From a virus: 29,325 bases of DNA. How positions within the stretch are numbered: the stretch's first letter is position 1; each line of letters starts with the position of its first letter. The position numbers and the translations under genes were made by a program. Below, piece by piece: positions 1 through 24,446 of this stretch. Location of the stretch: positions 1-29,325 of IMG/VR virus record IMGVR_UViG_3300043434_000013; one strand, given 5' to 3'. Below the pieces are notes generated by a model. It was not told the origin of the DNA. It did not search any database and worked only from the letters and a program-made list of their open reading frames with translations.

Positions 1-3000
1 CGTTCGCCGTGGTGGAAAGCCCAACCTGACATAGCGTTGAACTTACCCATCGGACCCGTACGGGTATCCCCTTGGATCATCTCATAGAGCTGAGATCGGT
101 CGAGCTGACCGTTGTCGGACCAGACCTTAATTGCATTGGCGTACTTTCTACCGATCGCTGTATCAGGACCGTAGTTAGCAATAGAAGGCATGACATCCAT
201 CAGCACTGTCTCACCGTCGGCACCGAGCATCTCGATCTGCGCCTTACGTCCGCTGTTCATAAAGATCTTGGTCGCATCCCCAAGAGCCCTAGATACACTT
301 GCGTCTGAGTACTTACCCATAAGGTAAGGAGCTACAATCATCGGGACGTTAGCCAAGTTGACCAGCGCCGAGGACAGGTTAAAGCCCAGCGTGTAGTGGA
401 ATGCCGTAGAAGACAATATGCTTCCTAGGTCATTTTTTGTCGGGTTGAGTACGTACTTGAGGTGCTTTTCGAACTCGTTGATGTACTTGGCATGAACAGA
501 ATTATCGCCGCCGGTCTTACCGATCGCAGTACCGTACTTGTGCATATCATCCAATGCACCACGGATCTTTGGGTTGTACCGGAGATTGGAAACTTGATGC
601 GCCATACCACGCATCTTCCTTTCAAACACCCCGATAGAATCCTTGTCGTAACCAGAACGACCCCCTTCTTTACGAGCCTGCATAGACTTAGCAAAAGCCG
701 TCTCAGGCAACGTAGAGATAAAGAGCCTCATCATCTGGTCGATCGCATCGTCAGCTACGCCATTAACCTTCATCAAATGGAAGACGCTGTTTACAAATGA
801 ACCAGCCGGCGCTCTACGGTAATCAACTTCGTTGATGTTGTTGTAGACGTTCATCTGCTCAGGATCGGAACCTTCAGCAAGGAGCTGTTCGATTCTTTTC
901 TGGCGTGCCAGCGTAGAGGTGAACGCTTCTACCGTGCGGTCAACCTGACCGTTCTTATCCTTGATCGTAGCGGACAACCAGAAATCACCTTGGCGACCCA
1001 GAGCAAAGTAAGGATCAATAAGGCCTTTCTTAGACATCTCTTTCATGATGTCAGCCTTGATCTTTTCCTTGGTGTCCTTAGACACGTCGGTGCCATCGAT
1101 ACGGTCATCGATGCCTTTCCTGATCTCTTCGTACATCCCTTTGTAGGCATCCCGCATACGTACGTACATGTTCTTCCATACGTCGTCGAGAGCTCTATAT
1201 CGGGTGTCTAGATCATCCCAGATCTTCTGTTTGTCAGGATCGTCCTTGTAGTAGTCCCTACGACGTGTGGGATCAACCATCTGGATCGTGCTTTCATGCA
1301 CCAGATCATCGAACCGGGAGTGCTGCAACCTAGAAGTTTTGATTGCTTGCTTAGCGAGATGGACGATCGGATCGATCATCTTATTCAATTTCTTTTCATA
1401 CCCGCCACGCTGATTGACCAGATCATTGATCCTATGCGCCATACCGGGGAAGTACTTTTCGGCGAGATCCGTCAAAGCATTGAGAGGTAGCAATGAAAGC
1501 ACCCCGCTGGATACCATATCGGACCCAGATCCAATCGCCTGACTCAGAGCAGATTTCTGTCTTTCATTGAGGAACGGAACAGCATCGATGATTTTATCGG
1601 TAGTTCCTATAGCAAATTTGGACCCCTTATTAGGCGCATACAGGATCGCAGCATCCCGGTATTGCGGGGCAGGAGAAGCCAACGCCGACAAGAGTGCATC
1701 CACCTTGTCATACGCGGAGTTCATCATCTTGGGTTCCATACCCATCATGCGACGGACAAAGTTTGAAACCGCTCGAACGAATCTATCCCACGCGCTATTA
1801 GGATTCCCATCGGGGTAGATGGACTGCAGGGTATTAGCCATCTCGGGGTTACCCCAAGATTCGGCGGCAAACTCCTGTACATCCTTAGCACCATACGCAG
1901 ATCCAAGGCTATCCTTGATCTTGTTGAATAGCTGAGTTAGGTTCCTAGTTAAAGGATTGTTCGGGTCAGCCAGAGCATGGGACATGACAGGATGCACAGC
2001 CTCATGGATCAGCACGTGCGAATTCAGCCCGTTAGTGGCATCCAGATGGATCGTATTGGTCCTAGGATCGTAATACCCAGCGACAGGTTTACCTGATTCA
2101 TCAGCTAGACCCAGAGACACAACGACCTTAGTACCCTCAAGGTTCTTAGCCAGAATCCTAGCGATACGTTCAGCAACACCGCCTACGTTTGCACCGTGTA
2201 GAGTCAATGCTTGGCGCAGATTACCTTTACGTAATGCCGAGATGACTTCGGGGCTGAGGACCTTGGCGAGCTTGGAGACTTCATTGCTAGGACCAGCCGT
2301 ACGCTCACCCTCTACTTGTGTGAGGATTTGTACAGGAGCGGACTCAGCCTGCTTAGCTTGGTTCCTATCGTAAAGATCGAGGTTGCCAGAAGCACCACCC
2401 ATAATAGAGGGAGCGCCGGGTTCCAATTCACCATATTCATTGCGTTCGGTAAGATCATCGATAGACCAGCGGGACTTGTCCATAGCAGAGGTCTTCTGCT
2501 CTTGGCGCTGTTGTTCCTGAATCAATCGATCCAGTTCAGCATTAGTCTCAGGGCTAAGATTCTTCTGCACCCAGCGAGCTGCGGCCTTGGCCGCTTCTCC
2601 ACCCGTTCCCCTGTACCGCTCGCCGGACTCAACACCTTCAACATCGGGGGCTAACCTGTGTCTTGGGGTCGGGTACACAAGATCATTAGCGATACTAGCC
2701 AGACTCTGTATAAGCGTCGGCATTTGATTGAAGTAAGCCTGAGCCGACTTCGCGTCGCCCTTGGGAGCCTTCACTCCCTTAAGAACGCCTACAGAGTTAT
2801 GGTCATCTTGGTTCTGGATATCTTCACTAGGTAAAGCTCTCGCCTGTTGGGTTGTAGGCACCGCTTTAGCCTTTTCACCCGCTCCGCTCTCCAGCTGATT
2901 AACTAGCCGAATAGCTTCCTTGTGGGTTTCTGTGTCACCTTCTTGGAGGGCCTGATCCGCGATCTCGCGTAGCTGGCGTATCCTTTGCTTAGTAGCAACC

Positions 3001-5204
3001 TGTTGGGCTTCTAATGTACGTTGCTCACCCGCTGTTCTTCCAGCAGGTTCAGATACAGATGGTGTACCGCCTGCCACTCCTCCGGTTTCAGATACTCCAG
3101 CTCCTTCGGTGGGTACACCTGCACTGGGTCCGCTAGGTAATTGAGGGCCAGCTCCAGCTCGTGCAACGACATCCTTATAGTCAAAGTATTCTGGTGCGGG
3201 GGGTTCTCTCCCTTCCCGTTTCCTATATACGCTCTCAGACCCCTCCCCGTACTCAGACTCAAATTGTGGCGCGAAGTATCCGGGTAGTTCTGTTTGCTGT
3301 GATGGTGAGGGGGTGAGGCCTCGGATGATTTGTCCGATTTCTTCTTTTCGCTCACGCGATATCTTGGAATTCGATTCGACTCGCTTAAGGACTTCTCCAA
3401 TAGCTCTTCTGTCTTCTTCGTTGCTGAGGTCTTTGCCAATGAGGTTCTTGTAGTAACCAGAGTTGGATTTAAACCCCAAGCGAGACAGAACGTCTTCATC
3501 GATAACCGTAGAAGGAGCTTGTGTGCTAGGAGTAGTAGTTTCACCACGTAGTTCATCAGTTCTCCCCATGCTTCCTTCGGCCAAGTAGGGGAAGCCCCAC
3601 ATATCAGCCTGTTGCGGAGTAGCCTCAGCCGCGCCCGGACCCCCATAAGGAGTCTGTGGAACGATACCAAGACCCGTAGGTGCAGGACCCCCCGACTGAT
3701 CTGTAGGAGGAGCAGCTTCTTGAGGTTGTGGTCTACGACCTGCTTGGAGTGCGGCACCGGGCGCACCAAATGCGCCACCACCAATGGCCCCGCGAATAGC
3801 GGAGTCAAAGACATTATCCATGAGGTCTTTACTAGACCCGGCGATCCTAGATGCTAAGTTATCAATAGCAGTCTGAGCACCTTCGGTAAGACCTTCGGTC
3901 GCCATAAGCTGACCGGTCTCAAGAGCGAAAGCCTTCTTCCAAGATGTGGGTACTACATCGACCTTTTCGCCGATCTTAGCTGTAAGCGCAGAACGTTCAG
4001 CATTCGTCAGCTGACCCCATATCTTTTGGGGTACGATCGTATCAAGCATGGCCTTAGCACCGCCCAAGGCGGTAGCGATACCGGGATGCAGTTCACCCGT
4101 ATCTTGATAGATCTGATTAAAAGTCTCAGGGATATTGAGGCCGGCAGAGGCCGCGCCAGTACCCACCCAAGATCCGACAATCGCCTTGTCCATCAGGCGA
4201 TCAGCAAAAGCGTTTTCAGCCGCAGCGGTCTCTAGACCCTGCTTGGTAGCGTAGTCCTTGATCTCATCGGCAAGAGCTCGCTTGGCTAATTTTCTACCAG
4301 CAAAAGAACCGATACCGGAACCACTGAGGAAGGCCACCATATCAGGGCCAGTCTCGCCGAGAGTTTCCGCAGCGTAGTCGAATGCCTGACCGATGCTACC
4401 AATGTCCTTGAATGACTCGTACGCGGTCGGGTACTGCGCTTGGATATCGGCCATGCGCTGGTTGTATTCTTCCAGCTGGTTCTTGGCGTACTCATCCTGA
4501 CCAAACATAGACCCGGCAAGAGCCGGGATAAGATCAAGAGCGGTGCCTTCGAGCCCCGCCATACCACGCTTCCAACCACCCTTAACAAGTTCAGAAGTAG
4601 GTAAATCTTTGGGATCAAGAATACGTCCACGACCATACTTGGCGTTCTGCTCTATGCCGCCGGGAAGGGAAGTCCATACACCAGACAAAGCACGAAGAGC
4701 GCCCTGCCGTAGCGCGGGATCACCAGAAGCCCAATCTTGTTCTAGGTTACGTCCGGTTTTGTTTTGGTAAGTCTCAGAAGCGAGGTTCCATGCAGCGGCA
4801 TCTTGACTCGCTGGTGACATGTCCTTAAGGCCAAGCTTCTTAGCTTGTTCTTTCCATGTGGGCTCAAGAAACTGATACCGACCAAAAGCAGAAGAAGTCT
4901 TACCGACATTCGGACCACTCATGATAGGCACGTCGATACCGGGGTGCTTAGATAGATCAGCTATCTTGCGACCACCATAGAGCGTGTTGTAGTCCGGGGC
5001 TTCCGTACCGGCGATCGTATCCAACAACTCTTTACGAGCTGAGGACATACCCTCCATAGGAGGGCGTTCCGGGGTCAATCCGGGGCGTTCCAGCCCCTTC
5101 ATGCTTTCTAATGTACTGGTAACTTTGGCGTTGATGTCTTCATCGGACATGCTCTCAGGGAAGTACATCGGCCCAATACCGGGCACATTGACGCGAGCTA
5201 CCAT
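1..5204 (-). CDS. Giant internal virion / polyvalent protein with GH104 lysozyme and HEAVH metallopeptidase-like domains (3' end outside window)
   Basis: A single frame stays open from an ATG at 5204 to the left edge, giving 1734 complete codons with no stop, so the C-terminus is missing. Residues about 55-215 look like a GH104 (lambda R-type) lytic transglycosylase. TIAGTEAPDYN carries candidate catalytic E68, GRYQF is at 108-112, and the SPASQDAA and GVWTSLPGG stretches match lambda endolysin landmarks. Residues about 290-480 contain several Gly/Ala-rich hydrophobic segments, as in ejection proteins. A low-complexity Pro/Gly/Glu linker follows. At 1067-1071 there is HEAVH, with EFAAE at 1111-1115 supplying possible third ligands, a gluzincin-like pattern common in large phage polyvalent proteins. 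Near the edge, the FNLSSALVNLANVP stretch is typical of such giants. It starts 6 bases after the preceding stop. Likely role (inference): ejected with DNA, opening peptidoglycan during entry. Small ORFs in other frames here are shadows. Confidence 0.85.
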   Translation of the reverse strand, partial: MVARVNVPGIGPMYFPESMSDEDINAKVTSTLESMKGLERPGLTPERPPMEGMSSARKELLDTIAGTEAPDYNTLYGGRKIADLSKHPGIDVPIMSGPNVGKTSSAFGRYQFLEPTWKEQAKKLGLKDMSPASQDAAAWNLASETYQNKTGRNLEQDWASGDPALRQGALRALSGVWTSLPGGIEQNAKYGRGRILDPKDLPTSELVKGGWKRGMAGLEGTALDLIPALAGSMFGQDEYAKNQLEEYNQRMADIQAQYPTAYESFKDIGSIGQAFDYAAETLGETGPDMVAFLSGSGIGSFAGRKLAKRALADEIKDYATKQGLETAAAENAFADRLMDKAIVGSWVGTGAASAGLNIPETFNQIYQDTGELHPGIATALGGAKAMLDTIVPQKIWGQLTNAERSALTAKIGEKVDVVPTSWKKAFALETGQLMATEGLTEGAQTAIDNLASRIAGSSKDLMDNVFDSAIRGAIGGGAFGAPGAALQAGRRPQPQEAAPPTDQSGGPAPTGLGIVPQTPYGGPGAAEATPQQADMWGFPYLAEGSMGRTDELRGETTTPSTQAPSTVIDEDVLSRLGFKSNSGYYKNLIGKDLSNEEDRRAIGEVLKRVESNSKISRERKEEIGQIIRGLTPSPSQQTELPGYFAPQFESEYGEGSESVYRKREGREPPAPEYFDYKDVVARAGAGPQLPSGPSAGVPTEGAGVSETGGVAGGTPSVSEPAGRTAGEQRTLEAQQVATKQRIRQLREIADQALQEGDTETHKEAIRLVNQLESGAGEKAKAVPTTQQARALPSEDIQNQDDHNSVGVLKGVKAPKGDAKSAQAYFNQMPTLIQSLASIANDLVYPTPRHRLAPDVEGVESGERYRGTGGEAAKAAARWVQKNLSPETNAELDRLIQEQQRQEQKTSAMDKSRWSIDDLTERNEYGELEPGAPSIMGGASGNLDLYDRNQAKQAESAPVQILTQVEGERTAGPSNEVSKLAKVLSPEVISALRKGNLRQALTLHGANVGGVAERIARILAKNLEGTKVVVSLGLADESGKPVAGYYDPRTNTIHLDATNGLNSHVLIHEAVHPVMSHALADPNNPLTRNLTQLFNKIKDSLGSAYGAKDVQEFAAESWGNPEMANTLQSIYPDGNPNSAWDRFVRAVSNFVRRMMGMEPKMMNSAYDKVDALLSALASPAPQYRDAAILYAPNKGSKFAIGTTDKIIDAVPFLNERQKSALSQAIGSGSDMVSSGVLSLLPLNALTDLAEKYFPGMAHRINDLVNQRGGYEKKLNKMIDPIVHLAKQAIKTSRLQHSRFDDLVHESTIQMVDPTRRRDYYKDDPDKQKIWDDLDTRYRALDDVWKNMYVRMRDAYKGMYEEIRKGIDDRIDGTDVSKDTKEKIKADIMKEMSKKGLIDPYFALGRQGDFWLSATIKDKNGQVDRTVEAFTSTLARQKRIEQLLAEGSDPEQMNVYNNINEVDYRRAPAGSFVNSVFHLMKVNGVADDAIDQMMRLFISTLPETAFAKSMQARKEGGRSGYDKDSIGVFERKMRGMAHQVSNLRYNPKIRGALDDMHKYGTAIGKTGGDNSVHAKYINEFEKHLKYVLNPTKNDLGSILSSTAFHYTLGFNLSSALVNLANVPMIVAPYLMGKYSDASVSRALGDATKIFMNSGRKAQIEMLGADGETVLMDVMPSIANYGPDTAIGRKYANAIKVWSDNGQLDRSQLYEMIQGDTRTGPMGKFNAMSGWAFHHGE

Positions 5205-5210: not shown

Positions 5211-6776
5211 TTACTCCGAGCTGCTGCTACCGCCTTCGCGGCTCCCACCTACGTATTGGAACTCTCTAACATTCTGAGCAAAGGCATTATCAATAGCCGC
5301 TCTAGCACTAGCTACTGCTCGTTGGTAGGTTCCAGATTCTTTCGGGTAAGTTAAGCCCTTAGTAGTTTCCGCGTCAAACATAACTCCGGAGCTGGTGGGG
5401 TCCATGTAAGCGTTTCTACGCCAGTCCTGAAGCTTGGACATAAACTGTCCTGCGCCGGGGGTTCCTTTGTACCCAGCGGCTACTTGTTTCAGTCTCTTAA
5501 TATCCTGCTCACCCGGAAGAAGAGCGGTACGCATCGTAGCTTCGTTTGCAGAAGCAAGCTGATGCGCGGCTTCAGCACCGTACAGTTCTTTCTGAGCCGG
5601 ATATAGACCTGATTTAGCTCGATTCTCCTCAGCCGCGGAAGCATAGTAGGGCTCCATCATCTTAGCCTTGGAGATATCGATGCCCATATCCATCGCTTTA
5701 TTCTCAAGTTCCTGACCCTTAAGGCCAAGGCTTGCAAGCTGTTGGATAATCTGACGATCGCCAGCACGAAGCTGCTCAAGACCCCTACCGTAAGACTCTG
5801 CACCCTCCAAACCACCCCGAGCGACGTTGACTCCGGCAAACGGAGACTGGCCGGCCATCATGCCAAAACCGGCCTTCATCAATGCAAGGTTACGGTTCTC
5901 AGCTTCCTGTTCAGCGCGGTCAGCTTTCTGCCCTAAGATCATGCTACGCAGTTCATCCCGATCGGCACGGCTACGTTCAAGATGCGCTTTATATATGTCA
6001 TCGATACCACTAAATGCGCTTGCCGCAGCATCTCTCGGTGTAGCCGGAGGAGCTTCAAGCCCACGTTCGATTTTGAACCCAGTATTAGGTGTAGCCGGAG
6101 GAGTAGCTGGCCCAGCCGGTGGCTGAGCTTGCGGAGAAGGTTGTGCTTGCGGAGGAGTTAGACCAGCGTAGGTACCGGGAAGTATGGGACTACGAGCCGT
6201 AGTACCCTTTGCACCAAAGAGATCCTGCATCCCTTTGTTCTGCTCTTCCATTCGCTTGATATCTTTCTTGGAATACACTTCATGAGGCATCTCAAATCTA
6301 CCTAAGATGCTTTTCCAAGAACCTTCTGGGCCAAAATCGGGGGAGTACCCCGGTGGGGTATCGTAGGGGCTATAAGATTCGTAGGGATCTTCGACCAGAC
6401 CCTCATCAGCGAACGCAACAATGCCACCACCCGCGTACTCTGCAGGCATATTACTTTGGGCTGCGTCGATACCCATATTAGGAGCAGGCTGCTGACGACC
6501 GGTCGCCGGTAGTGTGGGCGCGGGGGGTGCTACCGGACGGGTTACCTGATCCGCAGCCTGCATAACTTGATCGCTCACTGTGGTCGGAGGACCACCCTCT
6601 ATCTGTCGCATAAGAGCCTGCGCCATCTGGAGCTTCTGAGCTTCCTTGGTCTTTTTCTCAATGAGAGGGATACCGACGTAAGACGGGATAGACCCACTCT
6701 GTACACCCTTAACGATGTCGCCGATGCTGAGACCCTCAGCGCGGTTCATAGTCCCGTAAGTGCTAGTGATACTCAT
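5211..6776 (-). CDS. Putative internal virion protein, 521 aa
   Basis: The function is not established. The N-terminal 110 residues are helical, followed by the tag-like YAGGGIVAF at 114-122 and ADEG at 123-126. A Pro/Gln/Ala-rich linker (about 205-245) precedes a long charged, probably helical region (about 255-450) with many Glu, Arg and Ala residues. The C-terminus ends in a Ser run. There is no signal peptide or clear enzyme motif. Its start overlaps the stop of the upstream gene as TAATG, so the two are probably translationally coupled. It lies between the S74-domain protein and the giant lysozyme protein, which suggests a second or third component of the DNA-ejection apparatus. That assignment comes from context, not from a recognised domain. 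Confidence 0.75.
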   Translation of the reverse strand: MSITSTYGTMNRAEGLSIGDIVKGVQSGSIPSYVGIPLIEKKTKEAQKLQMAQALMRQIEGGPPTTVSDQVMQAADQVTRPVAPPAPTLPATGRQQPAPNMGIDAAQSNMPAEYAGGGIVAFADEGLVEDPYESYSPYDTPPGYSPDFGPEGSWKSILGRFEMPHEVYSKKDIKRMEEQNKGMQDLFGAKGTTARSPILPGTYAGLTPPQAQPSPQAQPPAGPATPPATPNTGFKIERGLEAPPATPRDAAASAFSGIDDIYKAHLERSRADRDELRSMILGQKADRAEQEAENRNLALMKAGFGMMAGQSPFAGVNVARGGLEGAESYGRGLEQLRAGDRQIIQQLASLGLKGQELENKAMDMGIDISKAKMMEPYYASAAEENRAKSGLYPAQKELYGAEAAHQLASANEATMRTALLPGEQDIKRLKQVAAGYKGTPGAGQFMSKLQDWRRNAYMDPTSSGVMFDAETTKGLTYPKESGTYQRAVASARAAIDNAFAQNVREFQYVGGSREGGSSSSE

Positions 6777-8722
6777 TAGACCGTCTCCATCCGGGTGCCA
6801 ATCATGTCGTAGTTAACGTACTTGTAGCCATTCGGCAATACCCCAACAGCTTCCGGCTTAATCTGCTCAACTTCTTGAGCCATAACACCACGATAGCGAA
6901 TACTAGGATCACCAAACTCAGGCCTATAGTTAAATTCGTACTGGGTAAGTCCGTTCTTCAAGCGACCAACAGCCTTGATATTGTCCTTGGTTCGAATGTC
7001 AGACATCGCCCCGTAAAGACCAGCACCCGCGATACCAAGACCAGCGACTTGAGACCAAGGATTAGGAGCCGCTTGATAAGTAGCCGTAGTTGATTGACTA
7101 GTGGGTAGGCCACGCAGCAAGCTATTAAGGAACGAGTACTGCTGGTACGGGTACTGTTGTTCGGTCTGGAAGTTCTGCATGGCAGCATTGATGACGTTCT
7201 GGTTCTGCTGTTGCTGTATACCGCCGAGTTGATTCTGAAGCCCGATGATTCCTTGTTGGGCTCCTAGCTGCATATTGCCAATGTTGGCAAGATTCATACC
7301 CTGCGCACCAACCTGACCATAACTTTGAAGGCCAAGCTGATTGGCACCGACGGCTCCTTGGACGCCTTGGATACCGGTTTGAGCTCCTTGGATACCAAGA
7401 CCTTGGCCTTGAAGAGCGGCCTGCGCCCCATGTATACCGAGCTCACCAGCGTTAATCTGCTGACCAACACCCTGAAGTCCAGTCTGATACCCTTGAAGCG
7501 CCGGGCTAATACCGGCTATACCGGTCTGAGCTCCCTGCATACCCGCAAGCTGCGCCTGAGTACCGGCCTGAAGACCTTGGAGCCCAAGACCCGAGCCATA
7601 CTGCATGGACTGAATAGCGTTCTGATATGCTTGGTTATAACCCTGACCGATCGCTTGCTGCGCGGCAAGATTGCCGGCCTGCTGGGAAAGAGCGTTAGCT
7701 AGCGCCGAACGAGAACCGCCAAAAGCGCCAGAAGAAGTAGCCGCGGCCTGCTGACCTGCCCCTTGAATACCGGTCTGTTGACCCAACAGCTGTAACTGTG
7801 GAGCAAGCGAAGCCTGAATATAGGGGTTCATGTATGCCTGAACAGCACCGGGACTCGTTGCTTGCGCCGCGTAGTTAGCGCCAGCTCCGTAACCCATACC
7901 TGCCATAGCGGCGGCATTAGCGCCATACCCAGCGCCTTGAGCGCCGTAGCCTAAACCTTGCAGACCGGTCTGAGCTGCTCCAGCCCCATAAACTTCAGCC
8001 TGCTGCGCGGCTCTATCAGCGCGACGCTGGGCATCCTGCCAAGCCCTAATACCAATTTCTGAAGCTTTAGCCCCATACCCAGCACCAGAAGCACCGTACC
8101 CCATCGAGGCGCTAGCCAAACCGGGGGTAAGAGCGGCGATACCCAGAGAACCCTGAGCCGCTTGATTAGCGTAATCTGTAGCTTGAGCAAACTGACCGGG
8201 GACCTGAAGCTGACGAGCAGCGTTCATAGCCTGAAGCTGCATAGGGCTGAAGCCCGCTACCGCAGCAGAACCACCCGCCGCGCCGCCGCTACCCGGTATT
8301 GGATTTCCTTGGGCATCATATTGGGTACCTAATAAGTTACCCTGCTCGTCCGTTTTGTACGCTGCCGTTTGTTTGTACGGCATGTACTGGGCTTGAGTAG
8401 CCTGCTGCAGAGCTCCCTGCGCGTTGGTTAACTGCCGTTGGGCTTCTGCGTAAGCTTCTGGATTATTCTTTTTCTGCCTGTCATTCCAACCTAGGATCGG
8501 ATTATTTTGCGCTTCGATTACCGCGTTATAAGCAGCGGGATCTACCCCGTACGCCTGATATGGACGAGTCCCAGTAACATTACCTTTACTATCGGTAGTA
8601 AAAGCCTGCTTCATAGCCCCGCCAAGCATTGCTTGGGCATAAGGCCGCATGTATTCAGGGATGTTACTTGTCGTTACCTGAGAGCTAGTATTTGCTGGTG
8701 CTCCAGCGCCGCTACCACACAT
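6776..8722 (-). CDS. Gly/Ala/Gln-rich virion protein with C-terminal Peptidase_S74 intramolecular chaperone domain, 648 aa
   Basis: The N-terminus begins MCGSGAGAP, followed by IPEYMRPYAQAML, an opening seen in aquatic phage internal proteins. Residues about 190-300 carry YGAxGAGYGA-like repeats. Residues 379-504 form a 7-residue repeat of the type LGIQGAQ/TGIQGVQ. The last 75 residues (574-648) match Peptidase_S74 (PF13884): SDIRTK with candidate nucleophile S574, D575 and K579, then YEFNY, RGVMAQEVEQ, PEAV and a final YVNYDMIG. In that family the domain trimerises the protein ahead of it, then cleaves itself off before the Ser. It is usually found on tail spikes and fibres. Here the neighbours are ejection-type proteins, so the protein could be an internal trimeric protein or a misplaced fibre. 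It begins one base after the GNAT stop. Confidence 0.85.
   Translation of the reverse strand: MCGSGAGAPANTSSQVTTSNIPEYMRPYAQAMLGGAMKQAFTTDSKGNVTGTRPYQAYGVDPAAYNAVIEAQNNPILGWNDRQKKNNPEAYAEAQRQLTNAQGALQQATQAQYMPYKQTAAYKTDEQGNLLGTQYDAQGNPIPGSGGAAGGSAAVAGFSPMQLQAMNAARQLQVPGQFAQATDYANQAAQGSLGIAALTPGLASASMGYGASGAGYGAKASEIGIRAWQDAQRRADRAAQQAEVYGAGAAQTGLQGLGYGAQGAGYGANAAAMAGMGYGAGANYAAQATSPGAVQAYMNPYIQASLAPQLQLLGQQTGIQGAGQQAAATSSGAFGGSRSALANALSQQAGNLAAQQAIGQGYNQAYQNAIQSMQYGSGLGLQGLQAGTQAQLAGMQGAQTGIAGISPALQGYQTGLQGVGQQINAGELGIHGAQAALQGQGLGIQGAQTGIQGVQGAVGANQLGLQSYGQVGAQGMNLANIGNMQLGAQQGIIGLQNQLGGIQQQQNQNVINAAMQNFQTEQQYPYQQYSFLNSLLRGLPTSQSTTATYQAAPNPWSQVAGLGIAGAGLYGAMSDIRTKDNIKAVGRLKNGLTQYEFNYRPEFGDPSIRYRGVMAQEVEQIKPEAVGVLPNGYKYVNYDMIGTRMETV
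7211..7588 (-). repeat. Coding heptad repeat region (18 tandem 7-residue units)
   Basis: Residues 379-504 of the S74-domain protein can be written in unbroken 7-residue units, for example LGLQGLQ, AGMQGAQ, TGIAGIS, LGIHGAQ, LGIQGAQ, TGIQGVQ. Hydrophobic residues recur at unit positions 3 and 6, the a/d spacing of a coiled coil, but Gly occupies position 2 and often position 5. On the DNA this gives imperfect 21-base repeats rich in CTGAGCTCC- and CTTGGATACC-like words. The register decays after about residue 470. Confidence 0.8.
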
Positions 8723-8723: not shown

Positions 8724-9176
8724 TCACACCTCTTTCTTAAATATGGAGCCGACTACAGAATAGCCTAAGCGTTCATACAACCGACTTGTCCTTTCGGGTG
8801 CGACCATTGTTGTTGTGCCGGGGCACACTTCTTTAACCCCTTTTGATTTAGCCCAGTCTTCGAAAGCTTTAATCAACCTGACCGCGGTCATACCACCCCT
8901 GTGGTTTGGGTCAATAAACAGGCCTAAATCACAAGCTATTAAATCTTTACCAAAAAAGTATTCAGTAACGTATCCACAGTACCCACCAACCGTTTCTTCA
9001 GTATCGTTCTTAGCGATTGCAACAAAATAGTCCGGGCTGTTTACCCAGAAAGTAAAATTATTAGTCAGTTTAACTGTATCAAAATTAAATTTGCTATAGG
9101 CCGATTCCGCGTGCATAAGCGACGCCAACCTGACCATTTCATGAACATCTTTCCCTGTAGCAATCCGGATACTCAT
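8724..9176 (-). CDS. GNAT-family N-acetyltransferase, 150 aa
   Basis: The length and pattern fit a single-domain GNAT enzyme. An N-terminal RIATGKDVHEM segment is followed by a beta strand (FVAIAKN), the core strand CDLGLFIDP at 82-90, and the acetyl-CoA pyrophosphate loop NHRGGMTA at 91-98 (a variant of R/Q-x-x-G-x-G/A). The following helix is LIKAFEDWAK, and the C-terminal RLYERLGYSVVG is the usual GNAT motif B ending. The reaction would be acetyl transfer from acetyl-CoA to an unknown amine. Its ATG overlaps the upstream stop by 4 bases (ATGA) and its stop lies one base before the next ATG, so it is embedded in the ejection-protein operon. Related GNAT genes occur in the same position in other podovirus-like genomes. 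The substrate could be a virion protein or a host protein. Confidence 0.85.
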   Translation of the reverse strand: MSIRIATGKDVHEMVRLASLMHAESAYSKFNFDTVKLTNNFTFWVNSPDYFVAIAKNDTEETVGGYCGYVTEYFFGKDLIACDLGLFIDPNHRGGMTAVRLIKAFEDWAKSKGVKEVCPGTTTMVAPERTSRLYERLGYSVVGSIFKKEV

Positions 9177-10465
9177 ACTGGCAAAACATTACGCGCCTTT
9201 GAATCCACGGCGATGTTCTTTTTACCCATGGACTTCTTTCGTTTGTTTTGAATCTGATCGACCATAGCGTAGAGGCGTTTTGCACCAGCCTCGGTAGACC
9301 CATTACCTAACTCAGATACAGCGCGGGCGGGAACTACGAACTCACCATCAGCCAGACGAGCCGGCTGCTTACCAGCAATCGTTGCAGGGATATCGTCACT
9401 TACCCCATCACCCGGACCACGGGTCAAGTTGCCACCATCGGAATAATGTCCGAGATCAGAAATCCCACCCCCAGCAAAATGCGCCAAAGGTTCACCGGTC
9501 AGAGGGTTGGTCGCCGGTTCATAACTTGCTGCAGCCTGCTGTGCGCTAGTCGGCATTTGCGACGGCGCTGAATAGAAACTCAACTTCTGCTGACTCGTAG
9601 GATAAGCATCCTGCCCCATGAAATTAGTCTGGGCTGGACCCGACTGCATCATGTTTGAATTAGGATTCAATGTGGCGATACCACCGTCCGCATAGCCCGT
9701 ACGAATATACGTAGGTTGAGAAGGCTGGAACCTGCGAGGGTCAAACTTGTAATAGGAAAGAGGGTTCCATCCTTGGTTTGGCGGGGTAGCCTGTGTAGGA
9801 CCTGAATTTCCACCAAGATAACTACCAAGCATTGACCCAGCGCCGATGGTCATCAGTGGGTTTTGCCCAAAGAATGTACCCGCATAAGAAGGAGCAGCGG
9901 CTCCACTGAATAAACCACCAGCCTGTGGAAGAGCCGCGGTCCCCATGCCTGAACCAGCGCCAACCGCGCCAGTATTAGCAGCGGTTACTAAGCCATTAGT
10001 AACACCAACACCCGCATTAGCTGGGACAGCCCCAGCCAAATTACCACCCATAGCATTAATTACGCTACCCGGAGCAATCCCCCCGGTTCCGCTCGTAGCG
10101 ATTGTAGGTGCCGCATTAGCCGCCTGAGTAGCTAGATTAGTAGCCCCCTGCCCAACCAAAGAACTTGAACCTGAAGCAACAGGAGTAGTTACCGCGCCAG
10201 TAGCCGCGCCGGGAGCAGCGCCAGCAGCAGAACCGCCCATAGCTCCAACAGCAGAACCCAGACCACCTGTAATACCACCACCAAGAGCTCCGAATAGAGC
10301 TCCCTTACCCACATCCCCACCTGTAATAGCGGAGCCTAGAGCACCCAGACCTGCGCCACCGATCGCACCTGCACCGATCGCACCGACCGCGCTGGCAACA
10401 CCAGCGGTAGCACCTAATGCAGTAGCGCCGGCACCAATAGCACCTGCAAGAGCAACGAAACTCAT
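9173..10465 (-). CDS. Glycine-zipper internal virion protein, 430 aa
   Basis: The first 85 residues are almost entirely Gly, Ala, Val, Ile and Leu in alternating small/hydrophobic arrays (AIGAGATALGATAGVASAV), a glycine-zipper pattern able to form membrane helices. The middle is a Ser/Thr/Ala/Pro linker. Three short Gly-Gly tags follow: YADGGIATL from 258, HFAGGGIS from 329 and HYSDGG from 340. The C-terminal 90 residues contain SDDIPATI, LADGEFVVPARAVSELGNGS and AGAKRLYAMVDQI, a domain I recognise as recurrent but uncharacterised in aquatic phages. A very basic tail (KRKKSMGKK) follows. This suggests a membrane-inserting DNA-ejection protein like the small internal proteins of T7-like and P22-like phages, but that is inference. 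It overlaps both neighbours by 4 bases (ATGA). Confidence 0.8.
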   Translation of the reverse strand: MSFVALAGAIGAGATALGATAGVASAVGAIGAGAIGGAGLGALGSAITGGDVGKGALFGALGGGITGGLGSAVGAMGGSAAGAAPGAATGAVTTPVASGSSSLVGQGATNLATQAANAAPTIATSGTGGIAPGSVINAMGGNLAGAVPANAGVGVTNGLVTAANTGAVGAGSGMGTAALPQAGGLFSGAAAPSYAGTFFGQNPLMTIGAGSMLGSYLGGNSGPTQATPPNQGWNPLSYYKFDPRRFQPSQPTYIRTGYADGGIATLNPNSNMMQSGPAQTNFMGQDAYPTSQQKLSFYSAPSQMPTSAQQAAASYEPATNPLTGEPLAHFAGGGISDLGHYSDGGNLTRGPGDGVSDDIPATIAGKQPARLADGEFVVPARAVSELGNGSTEAGAKRLYAMVDQIQNKRKKSMGKKNIAVDSKARNVLPV

Positions 10466-11268
10466 GATGGATTCTCCAAGAAGCGTATAGCTTCAATGCT
10501 TACCTTACGCGCAAGTCTATAACATACGGTAACTTCTTGCCCCTTACTTATGGGGCGAATAGCAAACGCGTCGATACCACGGTCGCTTACTCTAAATTCG
10601 CAGTTTGGACGAGCACTATGATTAGTGAACCGACCTATCGGAGTGCGGAGAGTACCCAGTCGAGTAGCACCAATGCGGTCGCCTACTTCAAAGTCCTTAT
10701 TAGCAAAGACACCCATGCCCTCTAATGAGGACGGGCAAATCTGTACATTGTCAGCATCTTCCGGCAAAGCTGCGGTTAGCGTACGGGGATTCTCAGAAAT
10801 GGCGCGAGCCCACTTCTCATTCATGTTGTACTCAAGAAGGACCCGGTTGTAATCTTCGCGGTCGTATTCTTCCTGAGATTCACAGACTAGGGCTTCTTCA
10901 ATAGCGCCAAGATCCTTGAGCGCACAGGCATGCACCGTAACCCATTCAACATCGTCGTGCGCGTAAACCGCTCTCCGGGTACCCGGCTTTGTGACAAATA
11001 CTGCCGGAGCCACAACTTCTGTCTTAACACCGTTTTCATCCACTACTGTGCAATGGCCCTTGAGGGCGATCGTAATGTGTTCCGTCTTATGCACCTTGGT
11101 CATGATGGCTGTATCTTTATCAACGAAGATACGCCGACCGTATAGATCGGGAGTGTAGTAATGCTCAACGGGTGGATCTACTTGATCGACTTCTCCAGCA
11201 GCTATGGCATCGGCCAAGCTAGCCTTGAACTGATCTAATGTAACCCTAGGTTTTTCAACGGCTTTCAT
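10462..11268 (-). CDS. Cupin-SET domain fusion protein (putative protein lysine methyltransferase), 268 aa
   Basis: Residues about 39-115 resemble a cupin barrel: KVHKTEHITIALKGHCTV (H60, H64, G71) corresponds to cupin motif 1, and KPGTRRAVYAHDDVEW (H104) to motif 2. A linker with acidic helices follows (EEYDREDYNRVLLEYN). Residues about 178-252 resemble a compact SET domain: GMGVFA at 184-189 (SAM-binding GxG), GRFTNHS with N217-H218-S219, PNC at 221-223 and the closing EVTVCY at 245-250. SET proteins transfer methyl groups from S-adenosylmethionine to lysine. The segment between GxG and NHS is only about 30 residues, shorter than in most SET enzymes, so activity is uncertain. It sits at the head of the ejection-protein cluster and overlaps the 430-aa protein by 4 bases. 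Possible targets are virion or host proteins. Confidence 0.8.
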   Translation of the reverse strand: MKAVEKPRVTLDQFKASLADAIAAGEVDQVDPPVEHYYTPDLYGRRIFVDKDTAIMTKVHKTEHITIALKGHCTVVDENGVKTEVVAPAVFVTKPGTRRAVYAHDDVEWVTVHACALKDLGAIEEALVCESQEEYDREDYNRVLLEYNMNEKWARAISENPRTLTAALPEDADNVQICPSSLEGMGVFANKDFEVGDRIGATRLGTLRTPIGRFTNHSARPNCEFRVSDRGIDAFAIRPISKGQEVTVCYRLARKVSIEAIRFLENPS

Positions 11269-11293: not shown

Positions 11294-11584
11294 TTATACG
11301 GTAGTTCCCGTAGCATCGACCCAATTCTGCCCATACCACCATATCGGTATCCCCAGCGTAGTATCAAAGTAAAACAAACCATCGGCTAACCCGACCGTAG
11401 GCCTGTCCACCGTAGGTCCAGAATAAGGTAGCGTAGATCCCAGCGTGAAGTTATCAATCTGGGCAAAGTACAATCTAAGTACGTTGAGTAACTGATCTAT
11501 ATACAGCTGACTGTACCCAACTGGAGCGATCGGTAAGTTAGGCGCTATCGTATGCCTAATTGGTGTGTTCTTAGGTGCGGCCAT
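11294..11584 (-). CDS. Conserved small phage structural protein, 96 aa
   Basis: The sequence reads like a widespread but uncharacterised phage protein. It has an N-terminal NTPIRHTIAPNLPIAP stretch, then an amphipathic helix YIDQLLNVLRLYFAQIDN. The C-terminal half resembles fibre-type GLFYFDTTLGIPIWWYGQNWVD segments, a short beta-hairpin motif seen repeatedly in fibre and tip proteins. There is no enzyme motif or membrane segment. It begins two bases after the end of the 783-aa nozzle-like gene, which suggests co-translation and a structural job near the tail. The function is unknown. Confidence 0.75.
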   Translation of the reverse strand: MAAPKNTPIRHTIAPNLPIAPVGYSQLYIDQLLNVLRLYFAQIDNFTLGSTLPYSGPTVDRPTVGLADGLFYFDTTLGIPIWWYGQNWVDATGTTV

Positions 11585-11586: not shown

Positions 11587-13938
11587 TTACCTTCTACCAT
11601 CCGGTCTGATATCGATACGGGGGCTACCCAGCTGCCAAGCAACACCAAGATCAGTAGATTCAATACGGAAGCTCATTTGGCGACCGCGAAGTCGGGTGTA
11701 CACCTGACCATCAAACTGTTGGACCGTATATTGAGGGATATGCAGATAATCTTGGTAGCTTTGCACTTTAGGTACGTCTGCCGTTCCGTAAGGTGTACCT
11801 GAATTCTGACGGGGTTTAACCGTCATGGTAACCGAAGGCATGTTCACGGAAGACCCGTTGAAGTTGATGTCTGGGAGGATACGCCAGACAAACCCGAAGT
11901 TATGCCCATCTCCGATGTCGAAATCAGAAGATTGAACGTAAGCCGTGATCGGTGCCGTAACTGACGTAGCATTATCGTCATTACCGTCCTCATGATAGAG
12001 AAGCCGGCCATTGTAGTCCGCAGCAATCGGGTAAGGCTGTGTGCCAGTCTGCAGCCATGCAGACCTATTCATGGTCCCGTAATACCAATTCCGATCGAGG
12101 TAGTTATAGACCACGTACCGGTCTACGATCGTGCCGCCACCACCCAGACTGACGTAGAACCACCAGACTTCATTGAATGCGTTGTTGGTACCACATACGA
12201 CCTGATAAGCCTGATCGATGTTGATATCTTCAAAGATGTATTGGCGCAGAGCGCAAGGAAGCACCTCCACGCGGCCAGAGTACATGTAGAACCGATCGCG
12301 TCCCATCCAGTATGTTACGTTGTTAACCGTAATCATGGAGTTGGGGGACATGACGGAGATATTGTCCATGATGATCTGGAATCCCCAGACATACGGAGCA
12401 CCAACATATTGCATCGAGTAGAGACAGGAATCGGTCCAAACTAGGATTTCCTGACGAGTCGTCTGGGCTCCCATGATGTACGAGCCATTGGTGAGCTGAT
12501 ATTCACCGGACTGATTCGTAATCTGCGGAATCCATTGCAGCGGGTTAGCCTGATCTGACCACCGTACCAAGAGTGGGTTGAAAGCGGTATTGGGATCACC
12601 CGGAACATAATTGTTTGCGCCAAAGGCGATCACAAACTCTTGAATAGATGACGCGATGACTTGGTACGTAGCAACGGGAGCGAAAGCCCCAGCGTAGGAA
12701 AAATAGTACGTGCCTGAGCTTGCCAGCGTCGTTGTAGCCGCGACCAGCGTCGTAGCATCGACAATCGGAACCGTCGTAGACCCAGTAACATAAGAAGGAC
12801 TGACGATCGTATTAGCCGGGATACCTGACCCTGTGATGTACATATAGGGGAAAATGTACGGCGCGTTTGCGCTAGTCACAGTGATTGAGGTCACACCCAA
12901 TAAGAACGTAGTGCCATCTGATATTGATGTAGTCGCGTTAGCTACCGAAGATACGGCCTCGGCGCGAGTAGCGATTGTCAGAGCATCCTGCCAATAAAAG
13001 ATAGGACCATCACGTGGAGCCAACAAAAGATTGGCACCGAAGTTATCGCTAGACCACAGTCTCAGCTGCTGCCCGATACCGGAAGAATAAGCCGTACCCC
13101 AGCCGTGAGCCCAAGGATCTAAAGCCGAGCCAGCGTTCCAAGGACCAGCACCCCAGCCCGTACCAATCGTGAATACGGCCTTACCATTTGGGTAAAGATA
13201 TTCAATGGTGACAGTGCCACCACCATTCGCCGCTGAAGTAGCCGGCGTGGGAGAAAGAATTGTGTACTGGGACGAAGACCCTACAGATGCAACGGTGTAC
13301 TCACCGCTAAGGGTAATACCACCAACAGCCGTAGCCCCTGAAATGATGACGTAATCACCCGCATTCGGGTTGTAGTCCGTGTCCGTAACGATGACGTTGT
13401 AACCTTGTACGGCGGTGCCGTTAGGATGCGTAGCCGCCGTAGTCCCGTTATACCCACGGGTTACTCCCGTCAAAGTGTTGCCTGACACACCGGAATAAGC
13501 GATCTGCTCCGAACCGATCAGAGCGACACCACCATACGTTACAAAAGACGCCCCAGAATTTACTGTGATTGAGGTAACCGTAGCATTGATATCCCCAAAC
13601 AGAGTCGAATAGGAAGTGTCGAAGGGATCGGTAAGAACATCCGTCTGGTATACAGGGGTGATGTCGTTGTAACTACCACCGTAATAAATGTAGTACTTTA
13701 CGTTCGTACCTACACCGATATAAGTCGCGCCCGCGCCCAAGTCCCCATCCAGCCAAACCCAGATGTCTCGACAAACCCCTTCGAACGTATCAGGAGACAA
13801 CTGCTGCCAGCCGCCAATTTTTTCTGGAAAACCAGAGCGGAAACGGATCTTATCCCCGTCGTACCAACCCCCTTCGTTCGAGTAGTCAGTACCTTCTCGG
13901 TTAAGGCCCGGTCTGAATTGAAGCTTCTGTAAAGGCAC
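11587..13938 (-). CDS. Tail nozzle / DNA-stabilisation-like structural protein, 783 aa, GTG start
   Basis: The N-terminus (LQFRPGLNREGTDYSNEGG, then WYDGDKIRFRSGFPEKIGGW) is a hallmark of a large structural protein found in many podovirus-like genomes downstream of the adaptors. By analogy it occupies the tail hub/nozzle position of P22 gp10 or the T7 gp12-like tubular protein B. It is beta-rich throughout. Residues 117-180 hold a small inserted beta domain ending RGYNGTTAATH that also occurs in the 310-aa adaptor. Residues about 340-425 look like another beta insertion. The 430-780 region carries LVRWSDQANPLQW, EILVWTDSCLYSMQY and YWMGRDRFYMYSG, typical of the family core. The start codon is GTG, supported by AAGGAG six bases upstream. 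An ATG-only caller would truncate the protein. Confidence 0.8.
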   Translation of the reverse strand: MPLQKLQFRPGLNREGTDYSNEGGWYDGDKIRFRSGFPEKIGGWQQLSPDTFEGVCRDIWVWLDGDLGAGATYIGVGTNVKYYIYYGGSYNDITPVYQTDVLTDPFDTSYSTLFGDINATVTSITVNSGASFVTYGGVALIGSEQIAYSGVSGNTLTGVTRGYNGTTAATHPNGTAVQGYNVIVTDTDYNPNAGDYVIISGATAVGGITLSGEYTVASVGSSSQYTILSPTPATSAANGGGTVTIEYLYPNGKAVFTIGTGWGAGPWNAGSALDPWAHGWGTAYSSGIGQQLRLWSSDNFGANLLLAPRDGPIFYWQDALTIATRAEAVSSVANATTSISDGTTFLLGVTSITVTSANAPYIFPYMYITGSGIPANTIVSPSYVTGSTTVPIVDATTLVAATTTLASSGTYYFSYAGAFAPVATYQVIASSIQEFVIAFGANNYVPGDPNTAFNPLLVRWSDQANPLQWIPQITNQSGEYQLTNGSYIMGAQTTRQEILVWTDSCLYSMQYVGAPYVWGFQIIMDNISVMSPNSMITVNNVTYWMGRDRFYMYSGRVEVLPCALRQYIFEDINIDQAYQVVCGTNNAFNEVWWFYVSLGGGGTIVDRYVVYNYLDRNWYYGTMNRSAWLQTGTQPYPIAADYNGRLLYHEDGNDDNATSVTAPITAYVQSSDFDIGDGHNFGFVWRILPDINFNGSSVNMPSVTMTVKPRQNSGTPYGTADVPKVQSYQDYLHIPQYTVQQFDGQVYTRLRGRQMSFRIESTDLGVAWQLGSPRIDIRPDGRR

Positions 13939-13948: not shown

Positions 13949-14374
13949 TTATGGGAGTTTTGCTATCTGAAAGTGCATGCCGTCAGGACGAGACCATTTA
14001 CCACCCCAGTCAAACCCGGCGTCGGTAAAGCACTTCACAAGTTCAGGACTCATCGTAGGAGTCTTACCAAACCCATTCCATGCGGCATTAAAGTCGATAG
14101 CCAGACCCCACGAATGCAGGGACATAGAAGTAGCACCGCGCTTCTTACGGATGTTGAAACAGCCATCCCAAGTCTTGACCTGCGCGGCAAGGCCACGTTC
14201 GTTGACGTTCTTAAACGCCTTCTCAAGCAGTGGTTTTAAGTCTTTGTTGCAGTAGACTTTCTTGGGTATAGCCCCATGCTCACAGCATTCAGGAACATCC
14301 CACACAACCATGAACTTACCTTCATTGGTCGAAGGATCGCCGTACCTAGCAAAACACTGTTGAGAAGTAACCAT
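13949..14374 (-). CDS. M15-family (VanY/L-alanyl-D-glutamate) peptidase endolysin, 141 aa
   Basis: The zinc-peptidase signature is clear: SLHSWGLAIDFN gives H87 and D94 in the SxHxxGxAxD pattern, and PDGMHFQ near the C-terminus gives H134. In the family these bind zinc and cleave peptide bonds in peptidoglycan stems. The length matches single-domain phage M15 endolysins. No signal peptide is visible, so a holin is probably needed for release. Six cysteines are present (positions 7, 30, 31, 42, 72, 115), which is unusual for a cytoplasmic phage enzyme of this size. It begins one base after the stop of the collar-domain fibre and lies just upstream of the nozzle-like gene. The holin-like gene at 16390-16563 is the nearest candidate partner. 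Confidence 0.88.
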   Translation of the reverse strand: MVTSQQCFARYGDPSTNEGKFMVVWDVPECCEHGAIPKKVYCNKDLKPLLEKAFKNVNERGLAAQVKTWDGCFNIRKKRGATSMSLHSWGLAIDFNAAWNGFGKTPTMSPELVKCFTDAGFDWGGKWSRPDGMHFQIAKLP

Positions 14375-17063: not shown

Positions 17064-17290
17064 AGTTCAGCCTCGATAATCGCGGTAGAGGTTTTTCGAT
17101 CGATCGTTAAGAGTCCTCGGCATCCGATATTCCAATCTTCGCCTGTCTGTACAGAATAACTTACTGTATTAATCCTAACGTGTTTAAACAAATACTCTTT
17201 GTCCCCTTCAAATACACGCCACACATGTTCTAGAGTACCCCGCCCCGGTTCCCCTCGGGATTTATTAAATCGAATCAAGAACTCGGACAT
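17060..17290 (-). CDS. Conserved hypothetical small protein, 76 aa
   Basis: I recognise the sequence type (FLIRFNKSRGEPGRGT, HVWRVF, EYLFKHVRIN, GEDWNIGCRGLL) as a small protein recurrent in cyanophages and other aquatic phages, with no known function. It is basic and aromatic-rich with predicted beta strands and no membrane segment. It overlaps the C-terminus of the 2OG-Fe(II) oxygenase by 16 bases, so the two are coupled and may work together. Its stop overlaps the next ATG by 4 bases. Confidence 0.78.
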   Translation of the reverse strand: MSEFLIRFNKSRGEPGRGTLEHVWRVFEGDKEYLFKHVRINTVSYSVQTGEDWNIGCRGLLTIDRKTSTAIIEAEL

Positions 17291-17976
17291 GCCATTGGCT
17301 CCTGATTGGGATTCATCCTAGGGACCGTAGCCAGATTGAAATGGATGAACCGGATGGGTTCATCTGACCCATGCCGACCAAAAGAATGTGGTAACCAAGC
17401 GTTGGTAAACACCATCATACCGGGTTTAGGTTGTATAACTATGGTATCACTTGAATAGGTGATGTCCGTCTGAGATTTTTGAAATAAACCAATCTGTACC
17501 TTACCGGGTCTAGGGTCATGCACTATCAGAGGGCTGGCTTTTTCAGGGACATCAAGAAAATAAAACCCTATGACCTGCGTACCACCCGCGTGGCTATGCT
17601 GTTCCATCAATGAGTGTTTGTGGTGCTCTTGCATCCACATTTCAGTGAAGTACGTATGGTAATTCTCGGTAGCCACGCCCTGAAGATCCAGAATATCTAG
17701 AGCAATCTTCCCAACATAATTAGCAAACCCGTCTAGCCTAGGATCTAAAGATAGGTTTGTAGACATGACCACGGGGAAAATCTCATCATAATCTTTAGCG
17801 TCTTCAGAAACCGCCTCTATGGCTACAGATTTAACTAGCTCCAAATACTCAGGGACCTCCACTGTATAAATACTAGTAGGAAAGTATGTATGAACCTGTA
17901 CATTTGCGTCTTCCGCTTTTGGTAAACCCCCGTCTACCACGTCAGACTCATCATAAATAATCTCGACCGCGCCCAT
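17275..17976 (-). CDS. 2OG-Fe(II) oxygenase (2OG-FeII_Oxy_5-like), 233 aa
   Basis: The double-stranded beta-helix landmarks are visible. EQHSHAGGTQVIGFYFLDVP gives the metal-binding H127-x-H129 pair, ASPLIVHDPRP is the strand following it, and GMMVFTNAWLPHSFGRHG gives the distal ligand H197. PIRFIHFNL gives R209, the likely 2-oxoglutarate-binding Arg. This order matches family PF13759, which is frequent in marine phages. The enzyme would use Fe(II), oxygen and 2-oxoglutarate to hydroxylate an unknown substrate. It lies between a cysteine-containing conserved protein and a small conserved protein in the fibre module, which suggests modification of a tail or host surface component. That is inference. 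All expected active-site residues appear intact. Confidence 0.87.
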   Translation of the reverse strand: MGAVEIIYDESDVVDGGLPKAEDANVQVHTYFPTSIYTVEVPEYLELVKSVAIEAVSEDAKDYDEIFPVVMSTNLSLDPRLDGFANYVGKIALDILDLQGVATENYHTYFTEMWMQEHHKHSLMEQHSHAGGTQVIGFYFLDVPEKASPLIVHDPRPGKVQIGLFQKSQTDITYSSDTIVIQPKPGMMVFTNAWLPHSFGRHGSDEPIRFIHFNLATVPRMNPNQEPMACPSS

Positions 17977-23434: not shown

Positions 23435-23607
23435 TACTTCTTAGCCTTTGCCTTCGGTTCTTCAACAACTTCTGCTACCGGAGCTTCAGCTACAGGAGCC
23501 GGTGCTTCCATAAACGCGAGAAACTTGTTGAGGATCTGTTCTTCGTAGCCAGAAGCTGAGAAGCCTTCGGCGCTGAGGAAGCTTAGTACGTCTTGTTTAG
23601 TCGCCAT
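23434..23607 (-). CDS. Small acidic/basic hypothetical protein, 57 aa
   Basis: Found by translating the gap: the ATG at 23607 overlaps the upstream TAA and the stop overlaps the next ATG (TAATG on both sides). The N-terminal 33 residues form a predicted helical domain (QDVLSFLSAEGFSASGYEEQ, then ILNKFLAFME). An Ala/Pro/Val/Glu linker and a Lys-rich end (EEPKAKAKK) follow. The domain-plus-linker layout suggests a small tethering or scaffold-like protein. No family is recognised with certainty. Confidence 0.78.
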   Translation of the reverse strand: MATKQDVLSFLSAEGFSASGYEEQILNKFLAFMEAPAPVAEAPVAEVVEEPKAKAKK

Positions 23608-23879
23608 TACTTGAATCCTTTTAATGTCTGCGCGAGACGTGCTCGCTGACCGAGTTTACCGGGAGCCTTAGCAGCCTTAGCCAGCTTCCCTGCTGGGATC
23701 TTCTGGCCTTCCTTAACCCCAAGGGATTTGCGAAGAGAGCCGGGCTTCTTGATAGCGTCAGCAATCCAACCACCCTTCTTGAAAACCTCAACCGAGTTGG
23801 GGTCATCCTTACGTTGGATAGTCTTCTTACTGGGCATCTTAGAAGGGTTTATGCAACCCATCCCGCGTGAGGCACGCAT
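23607..23879 (-). CDS. Small basic conserved protein, 90 aa
   Basis: The start at 23879 (TAATG overlap with the upstream stop) is preferred to an in-frame start 33 bases earlier. The protein then begins MRASRGMGCINPSKMPSKKT, an opening shared by small proteins in many aquatic phages. It continues IQRKDDPNSVEVFKKGGWIA, KKPGSLRKSLGV and a helical basic end LGQRARLAQTLKGFK. It contains the FKKGG tag. The net charge is strongly positive. It could bind DNA or another virion component. The function is unknown. Confidence 0.78.
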   Translation of the reverse strand: MRASRGMGCINPSKMPSKKTIQRKDDPNSVEVFKKGGWIADAIKKPGSLRKSLGVKEGQKIPAGKLAKAAKAPGKLGQRARLAQTLKGFK

Positions 23880-24253
23880 TACTTCTTGCCTTTCGCCATG
23901 CCGCCGCCACACATCTTGACCATCTTACCCTTGGTCTTACCGCGTTCTGCGATACCGTCCTTGCTGGGAGCTGCGGTCTTTACTTTGCCCATGGAGGTTT
24001 CACCGCCAGAAGCCATTTTCTTGCACTTAGCCATATCACCACCTTCTTTGAAAAGAGCCATACTCCCATGACGGGTCTTTGGCTTATTGATTTTCTGACG
24101 ATCTATACGACCGCCAAGACCAAACTTCTTGCCTTTATCGGCTTCAGAGAACTCTTTCGCTACTCCCACCGGTACGCCTACTTTCTTGGCGAACTCAGGG
24201 TTATGAGCCGCGGCTCTCATCAAACGCGCTTGCTTAGCAGATTTGCTAGGCAT
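23879..24253 (-). CDS. Basic Lys/Met/Gly-rich protein, 124 aa
   Basis: The frame is open from a TTG at 24274, but the ATG at 24253 is preferred. It begins MPSKSAKQARLMRAAAHNPE and has AGGTGA about 8 bases upstream. It overlaps the end of the upstream membrane-protein gene by 8 bases. FAKKVGVPVGVAKEFSEADK follows, a recurrent small phage domain. The C-terminal half is low complexity (MALFKEGGDMAKCKKMASGG, AERGKTKGKMVKMCGGGMA, KGKK). It contains the FKEGG tag and two cysteines in CKKM and MCGGG contexts. The function is unknown; nucleic-acid binding is plausible. Confidence 0.75.
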   Translation of the reverse strand: MPSKSAKQARLMRAAAHNPEFAKKVGVPVGVAKEFSEADKGKKFGLGGRIDRQKINKPKTRHGSMALFKEGGDMAKCKKMASGGETSMGKVKTAAPSKDGIAERGKTKGKMVKMCGGGMAKGKK

Positions 24254-24446
24254 CGTCGTCATCACCTTTGCCAATCAAACTCTGTACCGTCTTCGTTTCA
24301 TAAATACGGATAGCAGACCAGATAATTGAGAATAAAGCGGCTATCGATGGAAGCATGTGAGTCAGCGTCCCTACTACAGTGGCGATAGATACTGTATCGA
24401 CTGCATGCTTGATCGAATCGTTCATTGAATCAAGTATCTCAGACAT
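24246..24446 (-). CDS. Small membrane protein, candidate holin or head-membrane protein, 66 aa
   Basis: One hydrophobic segment of about 25 residues (VVGTLTHMLPSIAALFSIIW) precedes a conserved-looking SAIRIYETKTVQ, and a polyacidic tail GDDDDA closes the protein. The N-terminal 20 residues are amphipathic (MSEILDSMNDSIKHAVDTVS). The single transmembrane segment with a charged C-terminus fits a class II/III-like holin. However, it lies in the head/small-protein cluster about 10 kb from the endolysin, so a membrane role in entry or assembly is also possible. The start lies one base after the upstream TAG. Confidence 0.75.
   Translation of the reverse strand: MSEILDSMNDSIKHAVDTVSIATVVGTLTHMLPSIAALFSIIWSAIRIYETKTVQSLIGKGDDDDA

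Follow-up and report, generated by a model that had tools for sequence, protein, structure and literature searches.

The window, a 29.3-kb IMG/VR virus fragment carrying a podophage virion operon on the minus strand, encodes a 268-residue protein that is almost certainly a cupin barrel fused to a stripped-down SET domain (mini-SET). Judged from its motifs and their conservation, the mini-SET is probably an active methyltransferase; that it acts on a virion or ejection substrate is our guess from the gene position, and we give it slightly less than an even chance. The gene belongs to PHROG 34170, a large uncharacterised phage family, and is widespread in short-tailed phages. The SET fold is already known and some phage copies carry SET names in databases. 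Within the open-licence literature, no study of phage SET or cupin-SET proteins was found and no virion proteomics naming the cupin-SET protein.

Locus and operon

The features of the locus are listed in Table 1. The open reading frame proposed in the first-pass annotation is genuine, as is its location in an ejection-protein operon: its stop codon shares bases with the start codon of the 430-residue gene, and the gene two further on encodes a member of PHROG 4287 ('DNA ejection protein'). A GGAG sequence just upstream of the start of the 430-residue gene lies within the cupin-SET coding sequence. The 430-residue protein gave no Pfam or PHROG match and is called ejection-like from its position and its Gly/Ala-rich start. 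The 521-residue protein had no family match in Pfam or PHROG, and the window protein itself had no match in NCBIfam.

Table 1
Features of the cupin-SET locus (positions in the window; residue numbers refer to the cupin-SET protein)
Feature	Position	Strand	Evidence
Capsid	27954-28865	-	Phage_capsid_4 (Pfam)
783-residue virion structural protein, upstream of cupin-SET	11587-13938	-	PHROG 3287, E = 9.8e-61
96-residue virion protein, directly upstream of cupin-SET	11294-11584	-	PHROG 20787, E = 3e-15
Cupin-SET protein, 268 residues	10462-11268	-	ATG to stop; PHROG 34170, E = 6.6e-43
Cupin (double-stranded beta-helix) barrel, residues 33-114	10927-11172	-	AF2 strands; Foldseek cupins; PHROGs 12032, 24280
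Helical linker (residues 120-158) joining the barrel to SET	10795-10911	-	AF2 helices 120-127, 132-146, 151-158
Mini-SET domain, residues 173-251	10516-10752	-	Pfam SET; isolated-SET model and Foldseek
GxG (G184-M185-G186), SET-N cofactor motif	10711-10719	-	G184 99%, G186 100% of 76 nonredundant members
R208-T209...G-R-F-T-N216-H217-S...P221-N222, SET-C cofactor motif	10603-10647	-	R208, T209, N216, H217 100%
E245-V-T-V-C-Y250, predicted catalytic tyrosine	10519-10536	-	E245 100%, Y250 99%
ATGA overlap, cupin-SET stop/430-residue gene start	10462-10465	-	Sequence
430-residue Gly/Ala-rich downstream protein, ejection-like from its position; its Lys-rich C-tail makes it a local candidate substrate	9173-10465	-	
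GNAT-family acetyltransferase, 150 residues	8724-9176	-	Acetyltransf_7, E = 2.7e-8; PHROG 1249, E = 1e-29
648-residue ejection protein, C-terminal S74 chaperone domain	6776-8722	-	PHROG 4287, E = 1.3e-26; Peptidase_S74
521-residue protein, same operon as cupin-SET	5211-6776	-	Open reading frame
>1734-residue protein, last listed in the virion operon, after the 521-residue protein		-	

Several neighbouring genes were noted in passing. The GNAT acetyltransferase gene lies one gene below cupin-SET, within the ejection operon; it was rejected as a regular partner of cupin-SET, the PHROG 1249 search being positive in none of 45 related genomes. A weak GNAT relative is present in locus L014, and P22 gp14 (DUF2824) may, we presume, be GNAT-like as well. 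At its C-terminus the 648-residue ejection protein carries a self-cleaving chaperone domain of the S74 endosialidase type, more familiar from tail fibres and spikes. The window also encodes a putative 2OG-Fe(II) oxygenase in the tail region (17275-17976; 2OG-FeII_Oxy_5, E = 5e-10), an M15 peptidase of the D-Ala-D-Ala carboxypeptidase type, probably the endolysin (13949-14374; E = 3e-16), and a cluster of small Lys-rich proteins close to the head genes (23607-24711), an 87-residue member of which occurs in 8/32 cupin-SET phages.

The SET domain

Pfam SET (PF00856) matched the window protein at 43.8 bits (E = 3.7e-11; cutoff 22.4 bits) and 63 of 66 family members at E <= 0.01. When a 70-member family profile was compared with PDB chains, the best match was the SET domain of MLL1/KMT2A (1.3e-11) and vSET of PBCV-1 scored 9e-8; with the SET-only phage proteins added to the profile these values became 2e-14 and 2.6e-11, respectively. 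The AlphaFold (AF2) model of the whole protein had a pLDDT of 92.7 and a pTM of 0.84. The SET half modelled in isolation (pLDDT 90.6) was submitted to Foldseek, and the best 50 PDB matches were all SET proteins. vSET (A612L, a viral histone H3K27 methyltransferase; PDB 1n3j/3kma) ranked first (E = 1.4e-6, TMq 0.71, 29% identity), TMq among the best matches to this predicted model was 0.71-0.76, and MLL1 was again a close match. Profile search and structure prediction thus both bear out the SET assignment made earlier from motifs, and the fusion of cupin and SET in one protein is genuine. The residues then named were correctly placed for H60, H64, G71, H104, GMG (184-186), PNC (221-223) and EVTVCY (245-250); NHS lies at 216-218, not at 217-219.

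The phage domain resembles vSET in being a small viral SET with GxG, NHS..PN and GEEIT.SY motifs, and Y250 aligns with the closing tyrosine of both vSET and MLL1. The core is shortened, as had been noticed on first reading: in pairwise alignments, SET-N and SET-C are separated by 5 residues here versus 27 in vSET and 40 in MLL1, making the phage domain about 22 residues shorter than vSET in this region and leaving it without about 35 SET-I residues of MLL1. By alignment, the SET-I insert of canonical SET lysine methyltransferases is therefore essentially gone. Unlike vSET, the mini-SET has an invariant, phage-specific RT (R208-T209) before GRxxNHS, is fused to a cupin, belongs to a tailed phage of bacteria and has no histone substrate; compared with MLL1, no post-SET zinc cysteines were seen and there is no chromatin context.

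Members of PHROG 34170 such as Rhodoferax phage P26218 gp30 and Pseudoalteromonas phage PH1 gp49 match over the full length and occupy the same gene slot. The window protein is 28-30% identical to these examples, its clade being a deep branch with other downstream genes.

Conservation and selection

Scans of viral contigs yielded relatives in at least 504 of 599 matched stretches, among the matches listed. The set of intact, full-length cupin-SET ORFs examined numbered 214, including some from contigs that entered it twice. In 76 nonredundant members S180, G186, R208, T209, N216, H217 and E245 were conserved at 100%, and G184 and Y250 at 99%. Since the large viral contig scan had used SET motifs as its patterns, conservation was rechecked on the members reachable by non-SET patterns: among 39 nonredundant proteins of this kind, S180, G186, R208, T209, N216, H217, E245, T247 and Y250 were invariant and G184 was present in 38.

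The dN/dS ratio of the SET part was 0.01-0.17 in all close pairs, and pooled pN/pS was 0.11 for SET and 0.09 for the cupin, the pooled values being approximate because some pairs are copies of the same contigs. These ratios indicate that the SET domain is under purifying selection. The suggestion that the short core might be a binding-only domain thus lost ground: with near-invariant cofactor and catalytic residues and purifying selection, a decayed or binding-only SET is unlikely.

The cupin barrel and linker

The cupin-like barrel was weakly indicated by Pfam alone (Cupin_2, E = 0.007, below the cutoff) and was confirmed by the model, the N-terminal half of which had cupins as its best PDB matches in Foldseek (3d82, E = 1.4e-6, and many further solved cupins). 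The fold is shared with Cupin_2 proteins such as 3d82 and TM1459; the phage family differs from these in having no conserved set of metal-binding histidines. In the 76 nonredundant members H60 was found in 53%, H104 in 43% and H113 in 29%, and only H64 was kept (99%), whereas the window copy retains all four. A family-wide role of the cupin as a metal enzyme was therefore rejected.

Elsewhere in the barrel R45, G71 and G96 were conserved at 100% and W109 at 95% of the same members. The Arg, Gly and Trp positions are invariant even when cupin-only relatives are included, which argues that the barrel has a conserved, probably structural, role of its own. Two cupin-only families of relatives carry tail names, PHROG 12032 ('short tail fiber protein') and PHROG 24280 ('tail fiber adhesin'); these database names are probably misleading for the cupin half.

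The gene slot before the ejection gene

An iterated profile identified the gene directly downstream as related to P22 gp7; this held for 189 of 208 cupin-SET loci and for 19 of 29 cupin-only loci. The profile is specific, since 208 of its 221 matches over all ORFs fell on the immediate downstream gene, and several of the remainder were downstream genes that the ORF picker had missed. An independent search with PHROG 598 was positive in 26 of 44 cupin phages and in P22. The window clade is exceptional: its 430-residue downstream protein has no gp7 match, yet it occupies the same position and likewise begins with a hydrophobic stretch rich in Gly and Ala.

Overlaps of 4 or 13 nt between the cupin-SET gene and its downstream neighbour are common, and the two genes are often translationally coupled. 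In several phages the codons for the final KGDLCQ of the cupin protein double as the ribosome-binding site and start codon of the ejection gene. The two signals fall within the 3' end of the cupin gene in a SET-positive locus (L175) and in a SET-negative one (L012) alike.

In P22 the slot directly before gp7 is occupied by gene 14 (DUF2824, PHROG 651). Its product is unrelated in sequence and does not co-occur with the cupin: the gp14 family was found in none of 44 cupin phages, P22 being positive. Homology of the two was rejected, as gp14 matched only PHROG 651/DUF2824 and the P22 region contained no match to P0001; the slot alone is shared. The cupin thus occupies the gp14 slot as a non-homologous protein, and it may replace gp14 in function.

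SET as an exchangeable cassette

Cupin-only relatives, some more than 90% identical in the cupin, retain the slot before the ejection gene, and the cupin tree requires at least four well-supported changes in SET presence. Locus L175 (SET-positive, 2239-3102) and locus L177 (SET-negative, 829-1383) have cupins of 92% identity, and local alignment puts the identity of their ejection genes at about 73-87%. The SET domain is thus a dispensable, exchangeable cassette, present or absent in near-identical phages. The L175/L177 pair is also a natural experiment on SET function.

The question whether cupin and SET always occur together is answered in the negative by three further arrangements beside the fusion: cupin alone, SET alone and the two as separate genes. 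A Paraburkholderia ferrariae prophage (L260:8650-10097) encodes cupin and SET as two genes with a 4-nt overlap, a natural split of the fusion, and loci L261 and L263 have SET without the cupin. A SET-only family of about 95-100 residues (PHROG 28741) is common in marine T4-like phages (L264-L343; L010:5157-5456), cyanophage P-RSM6 among its carriers. These proteins have the same compact SET with RTPxGxxxNHSxxPN; they differ in having no cupin and in lying, in most examples inspected, directly upstream of the baseplate wedge gene gp25 and not of an ejection gene. SET-only genes often follow a PAAR-like gene, PAAR being judged by eye.

Substrate candidates

The Lys-rich tail of the downstream protein had been put forward as a substrate. 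It stands as a local candidate in the window, in its closest relatives L002 and L003 and also in L072, and is rare elsewhere. As a general rule it was rejected: in 37 of 65 downstream proteins the last 45 residues are free of Lys, and in L118 the protein in the gp7 position (198 residues) has no lysine at all beside intact SET motifs. Several other phages have a single Lys in the adjacent ejection protein, so the downstream protein is not a general lysine substrate. The small basic proteins, also proposed, occur in just 8/32 and 2/32 SET-positive genomes and were discarded as a general substrate. No signal was obtained from the L175/L177 pair, where 7 of 8 aligned lysines of the gp7-like protein are kept without SET, or from the overall Lys content of downstream proteins (medians 2.0% in SET-positive and 2.3% in SET-negative loci).

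No universally conserved Lys-rich partner was found among the SET-positive genomes examined. Because these candidates failed as a general rule, the substrate may be a different virion protein, a protein of the host or an amine other than lysine.

Discussion

Our preferred explanation, an assembly-module methyltransferase of cupin and exchangeable mini-SET acting on a virion or ejection protein, falls a little short of being probable as a whole. The gene product would belong to the late assembly module and consist of two parts. Of these, the cupin barrel would be the ancient and indispensable one: structural, without metal, encoded in the slot ahead of the first ejection protein, co-translated with that protein and probably helping to build the ejection apparatus. 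The mini-SET would be an added cassette, inferred to be a working S-adenosylmethionine-dependent protein methyltransferase minus SET-I; since SET-I is lost, the substrate side, formed elsewhere by SET-I, probably falls to the barrel and linker. Its most likely target would be a single lysine or a small number of lysines (or another amine) on a virion or ejected protein, methylated while the particle is being assembled, and the modification, again as guessed from gene position, would tune packing, stability or fate after injection. The second mini-SET family, adjoining the gp25 baseplate wedge gene on its upstream side in marine T4-like phages, supports this explanation. Weighing against it are the dispensability of SET, shown by the cupin-only relatives, and the failure of the adjacent ejection protein as a general lysine substrate.

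An active SET could instead methylate a host protein late in infection, for instance a ribosomal protein, a translation factor or a nucleoid protein, with the cupin as a targeting domain and the operon setting only late, high expression. The conserved catalytic motifs, an operon holding no conserved Lys partner and the gain and loss of SET in the manner of an accessory function all agree with such a role; we nevertheless consider it unlikely, as the cupin half keeps to the ejection slot whether SET is present or not and the other mini-SET family likewise lies inside a virion module, that of the baseplate. Loss of SET-I, which in known SET enzymes contributes to the substrate groove, and the dispensability of SET would both suit a domain that binds SAM or a peptide without catalysis, as a structural module within an assembly protein. 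Relics of this kind usually lose the cofactor motifs and the closing tyrosine, however, and here these are conserved together at near 100% under strong purifying selection, so that this proposal is improbable.

Least probable, and distinctly so, is a short tail fibre or adhesin in which SET is a decoration or self-modifying domain. The matches of the cupin half to PHROGs 12032 and 24280 point in that direction; the support consists of database names, with no experiment found in the open-licence literature, and the gene lies between the head-closure/needle genes and the gp7-like ejection gene, not with the tail-spike genes.

The assembly-module explanation can be extended, tentatively and with more doubt than confidence, to a dedicated minimal SET family in tailed phages that would have been recruited separately into genome-delivery modules (the podophage ejection operon and the T4-like baseplate operon), where it would methylate virion or injected proteins during assembly as a protein-methylation step in phage morphogenesis.

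SET domains have been studied almost solely as histone or protein methyltransferases of eukaryotes and their parasites. A stripped-down version with apparently intact catalytic motifs is common in phages of bacteria, wired into the genes of the DNA-delivery apparatus, and some of this apparatus may be methylated by the phage itself. If the mini-SET is active, it would be a natural SET enzyme smaller than vSET, making the role of SET-I directly testable, and protein methylation would be something that phages carry out while virions are assembled or upon injection.
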